From positions 40,972 to 74,010 of the forward strand of contig NZ_HE978518.1 of assembly GCF_000311725.1 (NCBI RefSeq): DNA of 33,039 nt. The letters are read 5' to 3'. The stretch comes from Robertmurraya massiliosenegalensis JC6. Lineage in GTDB: Bacteria > Bacillota > Bacilli > Bacillales > Cytobacillaceae. Positions within the stretch are counted from its first letter, which is position 1, and each line of letters opens with the position of its first letter. The notes under the pieces are model-generated. The model saw only the letters and a list, made by a program, of their open reading frames with translations, ran no database searches and had not been told where the DNA came from. Below, piece after piece: positions 2,297-33,039 of this stretch. Position numbers and translations under genes: made by a program.

Positions 2297-3640
2297 TTGA
2301 AAAAAAGAGAAATTGCCATTGTGGGCGCCGGTTATGTCGGCTTAGTAACTGCTGTTGCTTTAGCCAAAATCGGACATCACGTAACTTGTATAGATGTTGA
2401 TAAGCGAAAAATTGATGTGTTACAGGCGGGGCAATCCCCGATTTACGAACCAGGGTTAGAAGCCCTATTACGACAAACCTTGGATAGAAAAAATCTTTCC
2501 TTTACGTCAGATCATCACGACGCCCTGATTACAGCAGAACTTATCTTTCTTGCAGTTGGAACTCCATCCAAGAAGGACGGTTCAGTTGATTTGACCTATC
2601 TATTGGAGGCTGCAAAAGCAATCAGTTATGCAGCAACAGGTGAAGTAGTCGTCGTCACGAAGAGTACAGTCCCCGTTGGCACTAGTGAAATGGTCAAGAA
2701 CTACATTGAAGAGCATGCCTTACATGAAGTCAACATTCATGTCGTCTCAAATCCAGAATTTCTTCGCGAAGGGCAAGCTCTTCATGATACATTTCATGCT
2801 GAACGCATTGTCATTGGTGCAAATGATGAATACGGTGCAAATCTGTTAATGGAAGTTTATGAAGCTTTCAATATTAACATCATTCGAACCGATCTACGAA
2901 GTGCAGAAATGATCAAATATGCGTCCAATGCATTTTTAGCAACGAAAATTAGTTTTATCAATGAAATTGCCAATATTTGCGAAAAACTAAATGCCAATAT
3001 TGACGATGTCGCCAAAGGAATGGGAAGTGACTCACGAATTGGACATCAGTTTTTAAAAGCAGGGATTGGTTATGGAGGCTCATGCTTTCCTAAAGATACG
3101 AATGCTCTTATGCAAATTGCTGGTCATTTAAGTCATGAATTTGAACTTCTTAAATCCGTTATCCATGTCAATAATCGCCAACAAGCGCTTCTTTTTGAAA
3201 AAGCAATCGATCGTTTTAGGCATTTAAAAGGGATGAAGGTGGCACTCCTCGGTCTAGCGTTTAAACCCAATACAGATGATATGAGGGAATCACCAGCACT
3301 TACTCTTGCGGATAAACTTGTCAAAGAAGGAGCAGAGGTGACAGCCTTCGATCCGATTGCTTATGAAAAAGCAAGAGCAGTGCTCCCAAAAGAGGTAGCG
3401 GTTACATCAGATATTCGGCAGGCTCTCTATCATGCCGATTTCGCATTTATCGTGACAGATTGGGATGTCATCAAGGAACTTTCTTTATCCATTTATGAAA
3501 AATTTATGAAAAGCCCTGTTATTTTTGATGGTAGAAATTGTTATACACTCGATCAAGCTTCTAAATACGAGATTGAATATCACTCGATAGGGAGACAATC
3601 TGTTCGTAATCTATTAGTAGAAGCGCTATCAACGCATTGA
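2297..3640 (+). CDS. ugd: UDP-glucose 6-dehydrogenase
   Basis: This 447-residue enzyme oxidises UDP-glucose to UDP-glucuronate with two NAD+. The Rossmann motif GAGYVG is at 10-15, the central helical domain follows, and the catalytic cysteine C263 sits in GYGGSCFPKD; the C-terminal UDP-binding domain contains GLAFKPNTDDMRESPA. Length and layout match TuaD/YwqF/Ugd. The start is TTG at 2297 with GGGAGGGG upstream; the nearby ATG at 2293 is out of frame. The gene is third in a tight PAP2-GT4-ugd operon that ends at the terminator at 3649-3687, which ties UDP-glucuronate supply to the preceding glycosyltransferase rather than to a teichuronic acid cluster. Confidence 0.97.
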   Translation: MKKREIAIVGAGYVGLVTAVALAKIGHHVTCIDVDKRKIDVLQAGQSPIYEPGLEALLRQTLDRKNLSFTSDHHDALITAELIFLAVGTPSKKDGSVDLTYLLEAAKAISYAATGEVVVVTKSTVPVGTSEMVKNYIEEHALHEVNIHVVSNPEFLREGQALHDTFHAERIVIGANDEYGANLLMEVYEAFNINIIRTDLRSAEMIKYASNAFLATKISFINEIANICEKLNANIDDVAKGMGSDSRIGHQFLKAGIGYGGSCFPKDTNALMQIAGHLSHEFELLKSVIHVNNRQQALLFEKAIDRFRHLKGMKVALLGLAFKPNTDDMRESPALTLADKLVKEGAEVTAFDPIAYEKARAVLPKEVAVTSDIRQALYHADFAFIVTDWDVIKELSLSIYEKFMKSPVIFDGRNCYTLDQASKYEIEYHSIGRQSVRNLLVEALSTH

Positions 3641-3648
3641 ATAATAAT

Positions 3649-3687
3649 AAATCAATGAGGACGTTCAAATGGCGTCCTCATTGATTT
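3649..3687. terminator. Terminator after ugd, possibly bidirectional
   Basis: Perfect 15-bp arms (3649-3663 and 3673-3687) enclose a 9-base loop. The hairpin begins right after the ugd stop codon. The stop codon of the reverse-strand open stretch at 3678-3866 lies inside its right arm, so the hairpin probably also ends transcription coming from the DUF3298 gene. Confidence 0.8.
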
Positions 3688-3866
3688 CGACTGTTTTTGA
3701 TTGGATTGCGGTATTTTGTATTCTTAATCGTATACGTATCTTTATAGACTTCGAGTATCTTATCATTAGAGTTTAAAGGAAATACGACACTGATATTCAT
3801 ATCATCGACATCACTCGTTTTATAAGCAACAAGATAATTCGAAAGAAATATACAAAGTAGTCCTAT
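3678..3866 (-). pseudogene. Possible gene remnant or tiny ORF downstream of the DUF3298 gene
   Basis: Directly after the DUF3298 gene and in the same reading frame, separated only by two consecutive TAA codons, an open stretch of about 62 codons continues to a TGA inside the ugd terminator. It has a hydrophobic beginning (LLCIFLSNYLVAY) followed by a soluble tail containing VVFPLNSNDKILEVYKDTY. The only ATG is at 3800, which would give a 40-residue product, and it has no ribosome binding site. The composition looks protein-like, so this may be the 3' end of a decayed secreted or lipoprotein gene, but chance cannot be excluded. Confidence 0.3.
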
Positions 3867-29149: not shown

Positions 29150-30060
29150 TGAAATCCTATATCGTATTATCAGAAGAAGTAAAAGCAGCGAAAGAACAAG
29201 GGAAGCCAATTGTTGCCCTTGAGTCAACGATCATTTCTCATGGAATGCCCTATCCTCAGAATGTAAAGACCGCAAGAGAAGTGGAAGATATCATCCGTGA
29301 AAAAGGAGCCGTTCCTGCAACGATTGCGATCTTAGACGGAAAAATTAAGATTGGATTGTCCGATGAAGAACTTGAAATGTTCGGCAAGAGCACAGATGTG
29401 GCGAAGGCTTCACGACGAGACATCCCATATTTACTTGCAACAAAGAAAAAAGGAGCGACAACCGTTGCTGCAACGATGATTTGTGCTGACTTAGCAGATA
29501 TACGCATTTTTGTTACAGGGGGAATAGGTGGCGTCCATCGTGGTGCTGAAACAACGATGGACATCTCAGCAGATCTCGAAGAACTAGCGAATACAAATGT
29601 AGCTGTTATTTGCGCAGGAGCAAAATCGATTCTTGATTTAGGATTAACGATGGAATACCTAGAAACAAAAGGTGTCCCTGTCATTGGTTATCAAACTGAT
29701 CGTCTACCAGCATTTTATACAAGAACAAGCGAGCATCCCGTTAACTTCCGTTCTGACCAAGCTAACGAAATTGCCGCTACGTTAAAAACGAAGTGGGATT
29801 TAAAATTAAAAGGTGGAGTTGTCGTTGCAAATCCAATTCCAGAAGAATACGCAATGGATGAAACGCTTATCACAAACGTAATTGAGAAGGCATTAGAAGA
29901 AGCAGGTGAACAACACATAAGCGGTAAAGACTCCACACCGTTCCTCCTTGCAAAAGTTAAAGAGCTCACAGGTGGAAAAAGTCTTGAAACCAATATTGAA
30001 CTTGTTAAAAATAACGCCCGTCTAGGTGCTGAAATAGCAGTTAGCTTTAATGAGAAATAA
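29149..30060 (+). CDS. psuG: Pseudouridine-5'-phosphate glycosidase
   Basis: A 303-residue cytoplasmic enzyme that breaks the C-C glycosidic bond of pseudouridine 5'-phosphate to uracil and ribose 5-phosphate. Strong family markers are [20 protein letters not shown] at the N-terminus, [37 protein letters not shown] and [19 protein letters not shown] with the catalytic lysine, and [10 protein letters not shown]. Its ATG overlaps the psuK stop (TAATG), so the two are coupled. Together they salvage pseudouridine released from RNA turnover. A long convergent terminator separates it from selD. Confidence 0.96.
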
Positions 30061-30065
30061 GGAAT

Positions 30066-30106
30066 ATGTAAAAAGGTGAAATCAAGTTGATTTCACCTTT
30101 TTACAT
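30066..30106. terminator. Bidirectional terminator between psuG and selD
   Basis: A nearly perfect palindrome of two 20-base arms around one central base, with A-runs and T-runs on both sides of the GGTGAAATC core. It sits 6 bp after the psuG stop. The selD UGA stop codon (30093-30095) lies inside it. Confidence 0.9.
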
Positions 30107-31145
30107 AGATTAACTTATCTCTTTTTTCAGTTACTTTTCCCACAATCGCCGCATCAATAAGACCATGTTTATGTAGTCTATCGACATAACTTTGCGCATC
30201 TTGCTCAGGTAGTGCAACAAGAAGTCCTCCTGAGGTGATTGCATCACATAAAATCATTTGTTCTTCAAGAGCGATTCCTTCATAAACAACATCATCGACA
30301 AGCCAGCTATGATTAGATTTAGAGCCTCCTGGAATGATCCCTTGTTTGGCTAACTCATATGTGCCCTCGAGAACAGGGACTGAACCAAAGATAAACTCAA
30401 AGCTTACTTCACTGCCTCTTGCCATTTCACTGCCATGTCCGAGTAAACCGAATCCTGTCACATCGGTTACAGCATGTGGGGTGGATTCTTTCAAAAGTTC
30501 AGCAGCATTTTTATTCAAAGTGGCCATGACTTCAGTCACTTTTGCTTCCTGCTCAGGTGTAACCACTTGTCTCTTTATGCCAGTAGTCATAATTCCTACA
30601 CCAATCGGTTTTGTCATGACAAGTAAATCACCAGGTTTGGCACCGACATTTTTCCAAACTTTTTCTGGATGAACAATACCGGTAACAGATAAACCAAATT
30701 TTGGTTCTTGATCATCAATGGAATGTCCACCTATTGTAACTGCTCCAGACTCAACCACTTTGTCACTAGCACCACGCAAAATGTCAGCAAGAATATCTGG
30801 GCCAAGCTTCTTCACAGGGTAACCAACTATATTCAGAACGGTTTTAGGAACTCCACCCATTGCATATATATCACTTAGTGCATTAGCAGCAGCGATTTGT
30901 CCAAACATATAGGCATCGTCGACAATCGGAGTGAAATAGTCAAGTGTTTGTACGAGCGCAATTTCATCCGTTAATTTAAATACACCACCATCATCTGATG
31001 TTTCATGACCAACGATTAATTCTGGCACCGGATCATGCTTTGGTAATAAGCGCAAAACTTGCGCTAAGTCCTCAGGACCAATTTTACAGCCTCAACCAGC
31101 TTTACTAGATAAGGAAGTAAGGCGAATAATTTCTTCTTTACTCAC
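30093..31145 (-). CDS. selD: Selenide, water dikinase, a selenoprotein with Sec18
   Basis: SelD makes selenophosphate from selenide and ATP, the selenium donor for Sec-tRNA and tRNA 2-selenouridine. The full protein is 350 residues, starting at GTG 31145 behind GGAGGTGG. An in-frame TGA at 31092-31094 is codon 18 and falls exactly on the catalytic Cys/Sec of the family: the segment reads SSKAGUGCKIGPEDL, with C20 also kept. Without recoding, a gene caller would start near 31055 and lose the active site. The downstream body (ETSDDGGVF, DYFTPIVDDAYMFGQIAAANALSDIYAMGG, TIGGHSI) is canonical. A SECIS-like hairpin lies at 31049-31065. The true stop is also UGA. selA, selB and selC are not in the window. 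Confidence 0.94.
31049..31065 (-). promoter_or_regulatory. Candidate bacterial SECIS hairpin of selD
   Basis: On the coding strand AGCGCA, loop AGTTT, TGCGCT form a 6-bp stem that begins 27 nt after the Sec UGA; the loop GU is at +34 to +35. A GG or GU in a short apical loop within a few tens of bases downstream is the known bacterial SECIS pattern recognised by SelB. The SelW-like gene has the same loop. Confidence 0.7.
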
Positions 31146-31165
31146 GTTGTCCACCTCCACATTCT

Positions 31166-31195
31166 AGTATAACTCTTCATCTAAACATTTCACAA
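31166..31195 (-). promoter_or_regulatory. Probable selD promoter
   Basis: Reverse strand: -35 TTGTGA (31190-31195), an 18-bp spacer and -10 TATACT (31166-31171), about 20 bp before the selD ribosome binding site. It lets selD be expressed apart from the KAS-like gene upstream. Confidence 0.55.
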
Positions 31196-31230
31196 CGATT
31201 GAAGATGATTTCTAATAGGGTGAAGCTTCT

Positions 31231-32217
31231 TTAATATTTTAATAACATCGCTACAAGCTGGAATCCTCCACCAATTGTCCAGAATAGAATATGATCTCCT
31301 CTATTAATCCGACCCTTTTCAATCCCATCATAAAAAGCAAGGAGGGGACTGGTAGTTCCTGTATAGCCAAAACGATCTCCTATATACATAAACTTGTCTT
31401 CGTCTAGTTGATAATGCTCTTTGATCGTTTTAATATTGGCAATTGAAAACTGAGAAAAACAAAATGCATCTAGCTCATTGATTGAGAGATTATTTCTAGA
31501 AAGCATGGTCTCAAACATTTGATAAGTAGGGGGCATTGCAATACTTCCGTCAAATGGAATCCATTGCATCGTTTGTTCTCCAGACCCTTTAATCGTATTC
31601 GAAAGCCCTGTACGAGGAAAATTCGTGTTGCTGTACGTAACAGAATCCGTATGGTAGATCGAATCGATGAAACCAGTGTTTTCATTTGTTTTTTCTAAGA
31701 TGACTGCACATGCGGCATCGCCAAAATTAGCATATGAGATTTCTTCATCAGGATTAGCCATTAATGTGTTGTAATCAGAGCCTACAACAAGAGCTCTTTG
31801 GATAAAAGGATTTGCTTGCATATAGCGGGAAGCTTGATCAATTGCAACAAGCATACCAGCACAATTGGCATTTGTATCCATCGTTAATGTACTATGCTTC
31901 CCATTTAATTTATTGTGAAGCTGGATCGCATTGGAAGTAGCTAAATATTCAGGTGTTTGTGAGGTAAACATAATTAAATCAAGATCTTCACCTGTAAGAT
32001 GGGATTTTTTTAATACATTTATTGAAGCTTCATAAGCCATTGTTAAACTATTCTCACTGTCATTATTAATCACATAGCGTGACTTTCGACCAAGAATGTT
32101 CTCAATAAAATGAGTTGAGTCTCTTCCTTTCTTATTAAAATGTTCTAAATAATAGCTGTTGTCCACAGCATTATCAGGGTAATAGATTGCGATGTCACGG
32201 ATTTTAATATTTGTCAT
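31231..32217 (-). CDS. KAS III-fold acyl transferase-like protein lacking His and Asn
   Basis: A 328-residue thiolase-fold protein of the 3-oxoacyl-ACP synthase III family. The nucleophile C119 is present in DTNANCAGMLVA, and the C-terminal GRINRGDHILFWTIGGGFQL block aligns with FabH. The other two FabH catalytic residues are changed: where FabH has PHQAN, this protein has FSQFS, so the histidine is S255; where FabH has HGNTSAAS, it has FGYTGTTS, so the asparagine is Y285. A decarboxylating condensation is therefore unlikely, and acyl transfer through C119 is more plausible. A terminator-like hairpin separates it from the 116-residue gene upstream. Substrate unknown. Confidence 0.85.
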   Translation of the reverse strand: MTNIKIRDIAIYYPDNAVDNSYYLEHFNKKGRDSTHFIENILGRKSRYVINNDSENSLTMAYEASINVLKKSHLTGEDLDLIMFTSQTPEYLATSNAIQLHNKLNGKHSTLTMDTNANCAGMLVAIDQASRYMQANPFIQRALVVGSDYNTLMANPDEEISYANFGDAACAVILEKTNENTGFIDSIYHTDSVTYSNTNFPRTGLSNTIKGSGEQTMQWIPFDGSIAMPPTYQMFETMLSRNNLSINELDAFCFSQFSIANIKTIKEHYQLDEDKFMYIGDRFGYTGTTSPLLAFYDGIEKGRINRGDHILFWTIGGGFQLVAMLLKY

Positions 32218-32242
32218 GGTTCTTATTTACCTCCAATAAATT

Positions 32243-32269
32243 AAAAAACAAGACTACAGGGAGCCTTGT
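32243..32269 (-). terminator. Intrinsic terminator or attenuator between the STAS-like and KAS-like genes
   Basis: Reverse strand: ACAAGGCT and AGTCTTGT form an 8-bp stem with one G-U pair around a CCCTGT loop, followed by six T. It lies between the two genes and would reduce read-through into the KAS-like gene. Confidence 0.7.
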
Positions 32270-32285
32270 CATTCTATTAAACATT

Positions 32286-32636
32286 TTAGATTTCCTTTAC
32301 TTCTGCATTTGTAAAATTGGTGTTTTTAAAGATTCTATTCAATTGCATTTTCAAGATTGGATTTTTCTTAATTGTAACGACTAATTTGTCAAACCCAGAT
32401 TGCTGATACATCCGAATCGTATTTTCCATCGCAGGGACCATATCTTGTGTTAACACATCCATATCTGTTGAATCAGCGATTAATGTATATTCTTTAGGGT
32501 TTACACTTTTTACTTTTGCTGTATAATCTCCGACAAACTCTTGCACTTGTTGCGGAGTAAACGTTCCTGCAACGACTAAATCAATTGTTTTAGCAACTCG
32601 ATTCACTTTAATAGAATAAGATCCTTCTTTTGCCAT
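32286..32636 (-). CDS. Small STAS-like hypothetical protein, 116 aa
   Basis: The start is ATG 32636 with GAGGGAG 8 nt upstream; a TTG two codons earlier is less well placed. The pattern of short beta strands and helices (YSIKVNRVAKTIDLVVAGTF, then QEFVGDYTAKVKSVNPKEYTLIADSTDMDVLTQDM) looks like a STAS or SpoIIAA-like fold, with a conserved-looking D-S/T-D turn after the second strand, but this is a fold guess. It has no signal peptide, cysteine or membrane segment. It lies 68 bp upstream of the KAS-like gene with a terminator-like hairpin between them, and it heads the unit behind a good promoter. Function unknown; a partner or regulator of the KAS-like enzyme is one possibility. Confidence 0.6.
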   Translation of the reverse strand: MAKEGSYSIKVNRVAKTIDLVVAGTFTPQQVQEFVGDYTAKVKSVNPKEYTLIADSTDMDVLTQDMVPAMENTIRMYQQSGFDKLVVTIKKNPILKMQLNRIFKNTNFTNAEVKEI

Positions 32637-32667
32637 ATTCAAAACTCCCTCATATTTAGTTTTTTAA

Positions 32668-32690
32668 CGTATAACTGAGGTAATTATACG
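32668..32690. promoter_or_regulatory. Operator-like inverted repeat over the STAS-like gene promoter
   Basis: CGTATAA (32668-32674) and TTATACG (32684-32690) form a perfect 7-bp inverted repeat with a 9-base spacer. The right half overlaps the -10 box of the leftward promoter, a location suited to a repressor. The regulator is unknown. Confidence 0.5.
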
Positions 32691-32711
32691 AAATGGAAAC
32701 CTTGCTGTGAA
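32683..32711 (-). promoter_or_regulatory. Sigma-A promoter of the STAS-like/KAS-like unit
   Basis: Reverse strand: -35 TTCACA (32706-32711), a 17-bp spacer and perfect -10 TATAAT (32683-32688). It diverges from the SelW-like gene. Confidence 0.8.
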
Positions 32712-32819
32712 CGGGATTTAACGTAAAAATTCACTCCAAAAAAAATAAAATTATCTGGTATAGGTCTTTGTGTTTATTTTTATAAAATAACAACAGACTT
32801 TTTACCTATTTTTAAATAT

Positions 32820-32848
32820 TTGTCGAAGGAGATTTTCTGATTTAAAAT
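32820..32848 (+). promoter_or_regulatory. Possible promoter of the SelW-like gene
   Basis: TTGTCG (32820-32825), a 17-bp spacer and TAAAAT (32843-32848) lie 59 bp before the start codon. Matches to consensus are moderate. Confidence 0.5.
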
Positions 32849-32907
32849 GTATTTAATGAAAAGTGAATTTTTTATGAATGATTTCATCGAGAAGGAGTAG
32901 ATTTTTT

Positions 32908-33039
32908 ATGAAGGACTTTAAAATCAGTGTAGAATTTTGTATGCAATGAAATTATGCACCAAAAGCTGCGAGTTTCGCAGAAGAGTTATTTAGCCATTTT
33001 CGCTCTAATATAGCAGAAATGAAGCTTATCCCTAGTAGC
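32908..33039 (+). CDS. SelW-like (Rdx family) selenoprotein, 3' end outside window
   Basis: ATG 32908 with AAGGAG upstream opens a frame of 44 codons that stays open to the window edge if the TGA at 32947-32949 is read as selenocysteine. The product begins MKDFKISVEFCMQU, placing C11 and Sec14 in a CxxU redox motif right after the first beta strand, followed by NYAPKAASFAEELFSHF and IAEMKLIPSS, which match the SelW/SelT/SelH/Rdx thioredoxin-like family. A conventional gene caller stops at residue 13 and misses it. Rdx proteins are thought to act as thiol or selenol oxidoreductases with unknown partners. A SECIS-like hairpin lies at 32966-32980. selD is 1.8 kb away. Confidence 0.9.
32966..32980 (+). 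promoter_or_regulatory. Candidate bacterial SECIS hairpin of the SelW-like gene
   Basis: CTGCG, loop AGTTT, CGCAG form a 5-bp stem beginning 17 nt after the Sec UGA; the loop GU is at +23 to +24. Loop sequence equals that of the selD hairpin. Confidence 0.7.

Follow-up and report, generated by a model that had tools for sequence, protein, structure and literature searches.

Rdx or SelW-like proteins are small, about 70–100 residues in length. Insertion of selenocysteine (Sec) relies in eukaryotes on an element in the 3'UTR, and in bacteria the rule for a SECIS element is a hairpin shortly 3' of the UGA, about 16–37 nt away, with a G early in its apical loop.

The available portion of a 2006 survey reports 10 SelW-like bacterial selenoproteins, few or no SelW-like Cys homologues in Sec-using organisms and, for the Bacillales, three selenoproteins from three families (PMC1794560). 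SelW-like was generally the most abundant selenoprotein family in marine samples, according to the accessible part of that study (PMC2398784), and the corresponding part of a 2016 survey of >5,200 gives a SelW-like selenoprotein in 35 organisms (PMC5029168). In the sections available of each, a 2022 review lists SelW-like/Rdx proteins with a CxxU motif (PMC9312934), and a study of Campylobacter jejuni used ribosome profiling and proteomics to demonstrate that translation of SelW goes past its UGA (PMC11955535). No report of SelW in the Bacillaceae was found in the literature, judged on titles and abstract openings.

Here we analysed a stretch of 33,039 nucleotides (the window) from Robertmurraya massiliosenegalensis JC6, corresponding to contig C8, positions 40972–74010; the genome measures 4.96 Mb and is assembled into 24 contigs. 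The gene at its end is almost certainly a bacterial SelW-like (Rdx family) gene in which UGA is read as selenocysteine. With bacterial SelW-like selenoproteins it shares the family models, the CxxU and GGxFEV motifs, the hairpin after the UGA and the Sec machinery, and no essential difference was found, although its relatives share a strongly conserved FCM(Q/M)UNYAPKAA block and their selW usually lies in the gene order selD-selW-selA. As in C. jejuni, the product would be a small Rdx selenoprotein concealed by its own UGA, whilst here the score is below the cut-off of the equivalog model NF041051 (SelTWH_Campy; 66.4 bits, cut-off 88) and the protein is not placed in that subfamily. The gene adds a member to an established kind of protein, and its mechanism shows nothing new.

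The gene at the window end and its continuation

The features of the gene within the window are as follows.

32892..32897, + strand: Shine-Dalgarno-like AAGGAG, 10 nt upstream of the ATG (direct sequence reading)
32908..33039, + strand: first 44 codons of the selW-like gene, frame open to 33039 (Pfam and NCBIfam matches)
32947..32949, + strand: in-frame UGA, codon 14, Sec14 of the CMQU motif (homologue comparison)
32966..32980, + strand: SECIS-like hairpin CUGCGA-GUU-UCGCAG, 17–31 nt after the UGA, loop G at +23

Translated directly from the ATG, the final 132 bases of the window give MKDFKISVEFCMQ, UGA, NYAPKAASFAEELFSHFRSNIAEMKLIPSS, the protein starting MKDFKISVEFCMQ-U-NYAPKAASF. Since the selenocysteine codon resembles a stop, ordinary gene finders miss selW; a reading of the window made without database searches (the sequence-only reading) had proposed a hidden SelW-like frame with a CxxU motif at 32908..33039, and its frame, motif and coordinates were all borne out, with CMQU at residues 11–14, near the N-terminus. 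When the conceptual protein was compared with family models, with the run of N described below written as X, it scored 67.3 bits against Pfam Rdx (PF10262; cut-off 22.6) and 59.6 bits against NCBIfam TIGR02174 (SelT/SelW/SelH; cut-off 34.2). A sequence profile built from 24 relatives matched bacterial Rdx structures in the PDB, the best being 2fa8 (E 1.8e-16), as well as 2npb (E 3.6e-4), which we take to be mouse selenoprotein W and which belongs to the same family by this profile match whilst being distant in sequence. A chance open frame was rejected because the family models score above cut-off and the UGA codon is kept in homologues.

Directly adjoining position 33039, the contig continues with a run of 195 N (positions 3512–3706 of the fetched stretch L002), beyond which the selW frame resumes as GGAFEVIVNGQKIYSKLDTGLFPKNKEVIELLEKM followed by TAA (L002 3707–3814). 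This second part, 35 codons long and still in frame, includes GGAFEV. An Rdx-like continuation in frame, on which the sequence-only reading had staked its proposal, is hence present after the N run; the GGxFEV-like motif that it had predicted to the right of the window is there, and the length it had expected, 40–50 residues, proved too long. The protein as read amounts to 44 + 35 residues with the N run between them, and because these N interrupt selW in the assembly, the entire protein has never been read from this organism. Relatives, four of them from the same genus, align without any insertion at this site (..PSSGGAFEV.. and variants), in an alignment confined to those fetched loci that have GG before the FE motif. 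This makes a scaffold gap of nominal size the likeliest explanation of the N run, although a masked stretch would look the same.

The run falls exactly at a codon boundary of selW, and its 195 positions are divisible by three (65 codons). Preservation of the frame across exactly 65 codons would also be expected if the N concealed real additional sequence, or might be read as a sign that the pieces were mis-scaffolded, and either is compatible with a SelW-like gene; the alignment of relatives without an insertion, together with the presence of selA further along, as in relatives, makes this an improbable account of the N run.

Conservation of the UGA and of the hairpin that follows it

Among the loci fetched, UGA occupied the Sec codon of selW in 121 of 122 distinct homologues and TGT in the remaining one, using an extraction pattern that admitted only Sec or Cys at that codon. 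The Rdx matches listed for the family carry one in-frame TGA each, with the sole exception of the Cys form in genome G032, and every match listed from the sample of the order has one TGA. Four family genomes also encode another kind of Rdx protein with Sec, which reads YCTAUGNLPKAV at loci L006, L007 and L008 and YCTAUNFLPRAV at L015; three of these genomes have two Rdx matches.

As in bacterial SECIS elements, the hairpin lies shortly after the UGA and has a loop G, here at +23; its stem joins +17 to +21 with +27 to +31, and all five pairs are formed in 111 of 113 distinct sequences. Pairing between codons was counted in the 107 sequences of the main KAA form, the six without this form being left out. 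The third bases of the sixth and tenth codons after the UGA were C-G in 78, U-A in 24 and U-G in five, and never C-A, and those of the seventh and ninth codons were G-C in 99 and A-U in eight; synonymous changes therefore match across the stem in all 107 main-form sequences. No shuffle out of 10,000 was as extreme as the observed pairing for either codon pair, in a comparison that ignores relatedness. The lone Cys homologue (TGT) has lost the hairpin fold.

Relatedness was allowed for with a tree of SelA built from 103 of the 114 SelA-bearing loci. On this tree (103 rows) the base at codon 6 changed at least 13 times, and among seven supported independent pairs of sequences differing at codon 6, codon 10 followed codon 6 in an average of 5.2 and went in the opposite direction in none (median p 0.0625). 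Codons 7 and 9 offered just one well-supported independent pair. Five of the six control codon pairs gave same-way/other-way values of 1.3/1.2, 1.3/1.2, 1.6/1.0, 0.4/0.2 and 2.3/0.6, the last being a mild trend (median p 0.5) and the other four showing no trend. The evidence for co-change in the stem is weaker once relatedness is allowed for. On its own, the window's hairpin was not unusually stable (z -1.04; 29 of 200 shuffles folded equally well), and a search of positions 30000–33039 of the window with Rfam returned 13 sub-threshold matches, with no SECIS family among them.

These data bear on whether selW is instead a decaying Cys-type Rdx gene in which the UGA really ends translation, or the UGA is a sequencing error. 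The N run that breaks the gene in the assembly, and the lack of significance of the hairpin when folded from a single sequence, would be in keeping with decay, against which stand the UGA retained in nearly every distinct homologue, the frame that is kept, the preservation of the hairpin through synonymous changes and the tracking of selB by the presence of the gene (see below), so that we regard decay or error as highly improbable. For a UGA read as selenocysteine, the paired synonymous changes make a SECIS hairpin within coding sequence directly testable.

Selenocysteine machinery, other UGA-containing genes and gene neighbourhood

The remaining features of the locus and genome are given below.

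30093..31145, - strand: selD (selenide, water dikinase; TIGR00476, 393 bits)
31092..31094, - strand: in-frame UGA (Sec) of selD, LSSKAG-U-GCK (sequence reading)
31067..31079, - strand: SECIS-like hairpin of selD, GGUCC-UGA-GGACU, +13 to +25 after its UGA
31231-32642, - strand: ketoacyl-ACP synthase III-like gene and a 118-residue protein, between selD and selW
L002 4246-5652: selA, downstream of selW (565.8 bits)
C1:214544-216403: selB (359.9 bits, cut-off 242.25; one of seven matches above it)
C1:280687-280779: tRNA-Sec (56.7 bits, gathering score 47; ARAGORN anticodon TCA)
C5:102898-104919: formate dehydrogenase alpha gene with in-frame UGA (795.2 bits, cut-off 666.25)
C2:562378-563139 and C2:487853-488608: two formate dehydrogenase alpha relatives with UGA (226.8 and 211.7 bits, under 666.25)

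The Sec machinery, whose presence the sequence-only reading had made a test of its proposal, is encoded in the genome in the form of selA, selB, tRNA-Sec and selD. The tRNA-Sec model gave 17 matches in this genome, one of them above cut-off, and matched all 14 control genomes, five above cut-off. The GTG start of selD at 31145 is a chosen start, the open reading frame list beginning the gene late, at 31055. The selD hairpin is part of the lowest-energy fold of the window's sequence and is absent from the folds of some relatives. The Sec frame of selD contains one UGA and terminates at another, and UGA therefore doubles here as stop and Sec codon. The frame of selW would be open under any code that gives UGA a residue, as expected if a changed genetic code or suppression inserted another amino acid; the termination of selD at UGA, the tRNA-Sec with anticodon TCA alongside selA, selB and selD, and the conserved hairpin after the UGA all speak for selenocysteine and render insertion of another residue extremely improbable.

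The idea that SelW and SelD are the sole clients of the Sec machinery did not hold up, as the genome has three UGA-containing genes of formate dehydrogenase alpha type; with selW and selD, this would bring its selenoproteins to at least five. The hairpin loops after the UGA in these three genes were read as GGUCU, AGUUU and GGUCU, at a distance similar to that in selW, and the lowest-energy fold of the third gene is without that hairpin. The loop of E. coli fdhF likewise reads GGUCU. Across 80 named loci, the selD motif was present in its Sec form in 57 and was not found in 23, and no Cys form was seen among the 80.

Within the stretch fetched around each of these 80 loci, selD was present in 58, selA in 78 and acnA in 72, and in 54 of the 58 selD-bearing loci the selD and selW matches begin 125–178 nt apart on opposite strands. 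The pair formed by the ketoacyl synthase III-like gene and the 118-residue orphan, the latter having no Pfam or NCBIfam match, separates selD from selW in three of the 80 loci as well, judged by their distances those of R. siralis, R. yapensis and R. kyonggiensis, and is missing from the B. dakarensis locus and the other loci examined. A selD-selW-selA cluster was also observed on a 690 kb plasmid of Cytobacillus spongiae (L208, NZ_CP089998.1). The record of this plasmid, in a gene table stated to be incomplete, lists selD at its full UGA-containing length and has no feature for the adjoining UGA-containing selW. The suggestion made from the sequence that such genes are rarely annotated in the Bacillaceae is thus in line with one Bacillaceae record, in which selW is unlisted and the gene table incomplete.

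Distribution and possible role of SelW in the family

Of the 193 family genomes, 160 gave a match to Rdx; in a sample of the order, drawn evenly from a larger group, the figure was 165 of 397. The genome scan confirmed 255 stretches, from which 80 loci were kept, from Robertmurraya, Cytobacillus, Neobacillus, Mesobacillus, Rossellomorea and others; the four same-genus genomes with the locus are R. siralis, R. yapensis, R. kyonggiensis and Bacillus dakarensis. A phage collection of 50,697 records gave no match, and 32 of 72,556 records in a plasmid collection matched. Annotation as SelT/SelW/SelH family was seen for some rhizobial records among the plasmid matches listed.

The gene selB was found in 170 of the 193 family genomes (E <= 1e-60). 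Rdx and selB occurred together in 157, Rdx only in three, selB only in 13 and neither in 20, with 13 genomes assigned by elimination for Rdx and three for selB. The Fisher p value for this co-occurrence (1e-15; 193 family genomes) overstates independence, because 13 of the 20 double negatives are from one genus. Two of the three Rdx-only genomes are 66% complete and the third is in 720 contigs.

In the mechanism that we envisage, SelB bound to Sec-tRNA would grip the hairpin and the UGA would be decoded as selenocysteine. The product would be about 79 residues long and have a predicted thioredoxin-like fold, in which Cys11 and Sec14 may form a reversible selenenylsulfide. We lean towards the view that the product acts through this selenenylsulfide as a small thiol/selenol redox protein; to name bacillithiol or thioredoxin as its partner is guesswork.

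Bacillaceae-type bacteria are mostly aerobic. More tentatively, a nearly Sec-only SelW-like protein may be among the most widespread selenoproteins of Bacillaceae-type genomes, part of an old Sec cluster with selD and selA and absent from genomes that lack selB, with three incomplete or fragmented assemblies as exceptions, and its task, possibly linked to bacillithiol, may be a main reason for keeping selenocysteine; we consider this a real possibility that falls somewhat short of an even chance. The comparison of 160 of 193 family genomes with the 35 organisms in the available portion of the 2016 survey (PMC5029168) is not like-for-like because the samples differ. The gene itself is ordinary once recognised, and the useful part of the finding is the breadth of selW in the family: such bacilli could help to reveal what bacterial SelW does.
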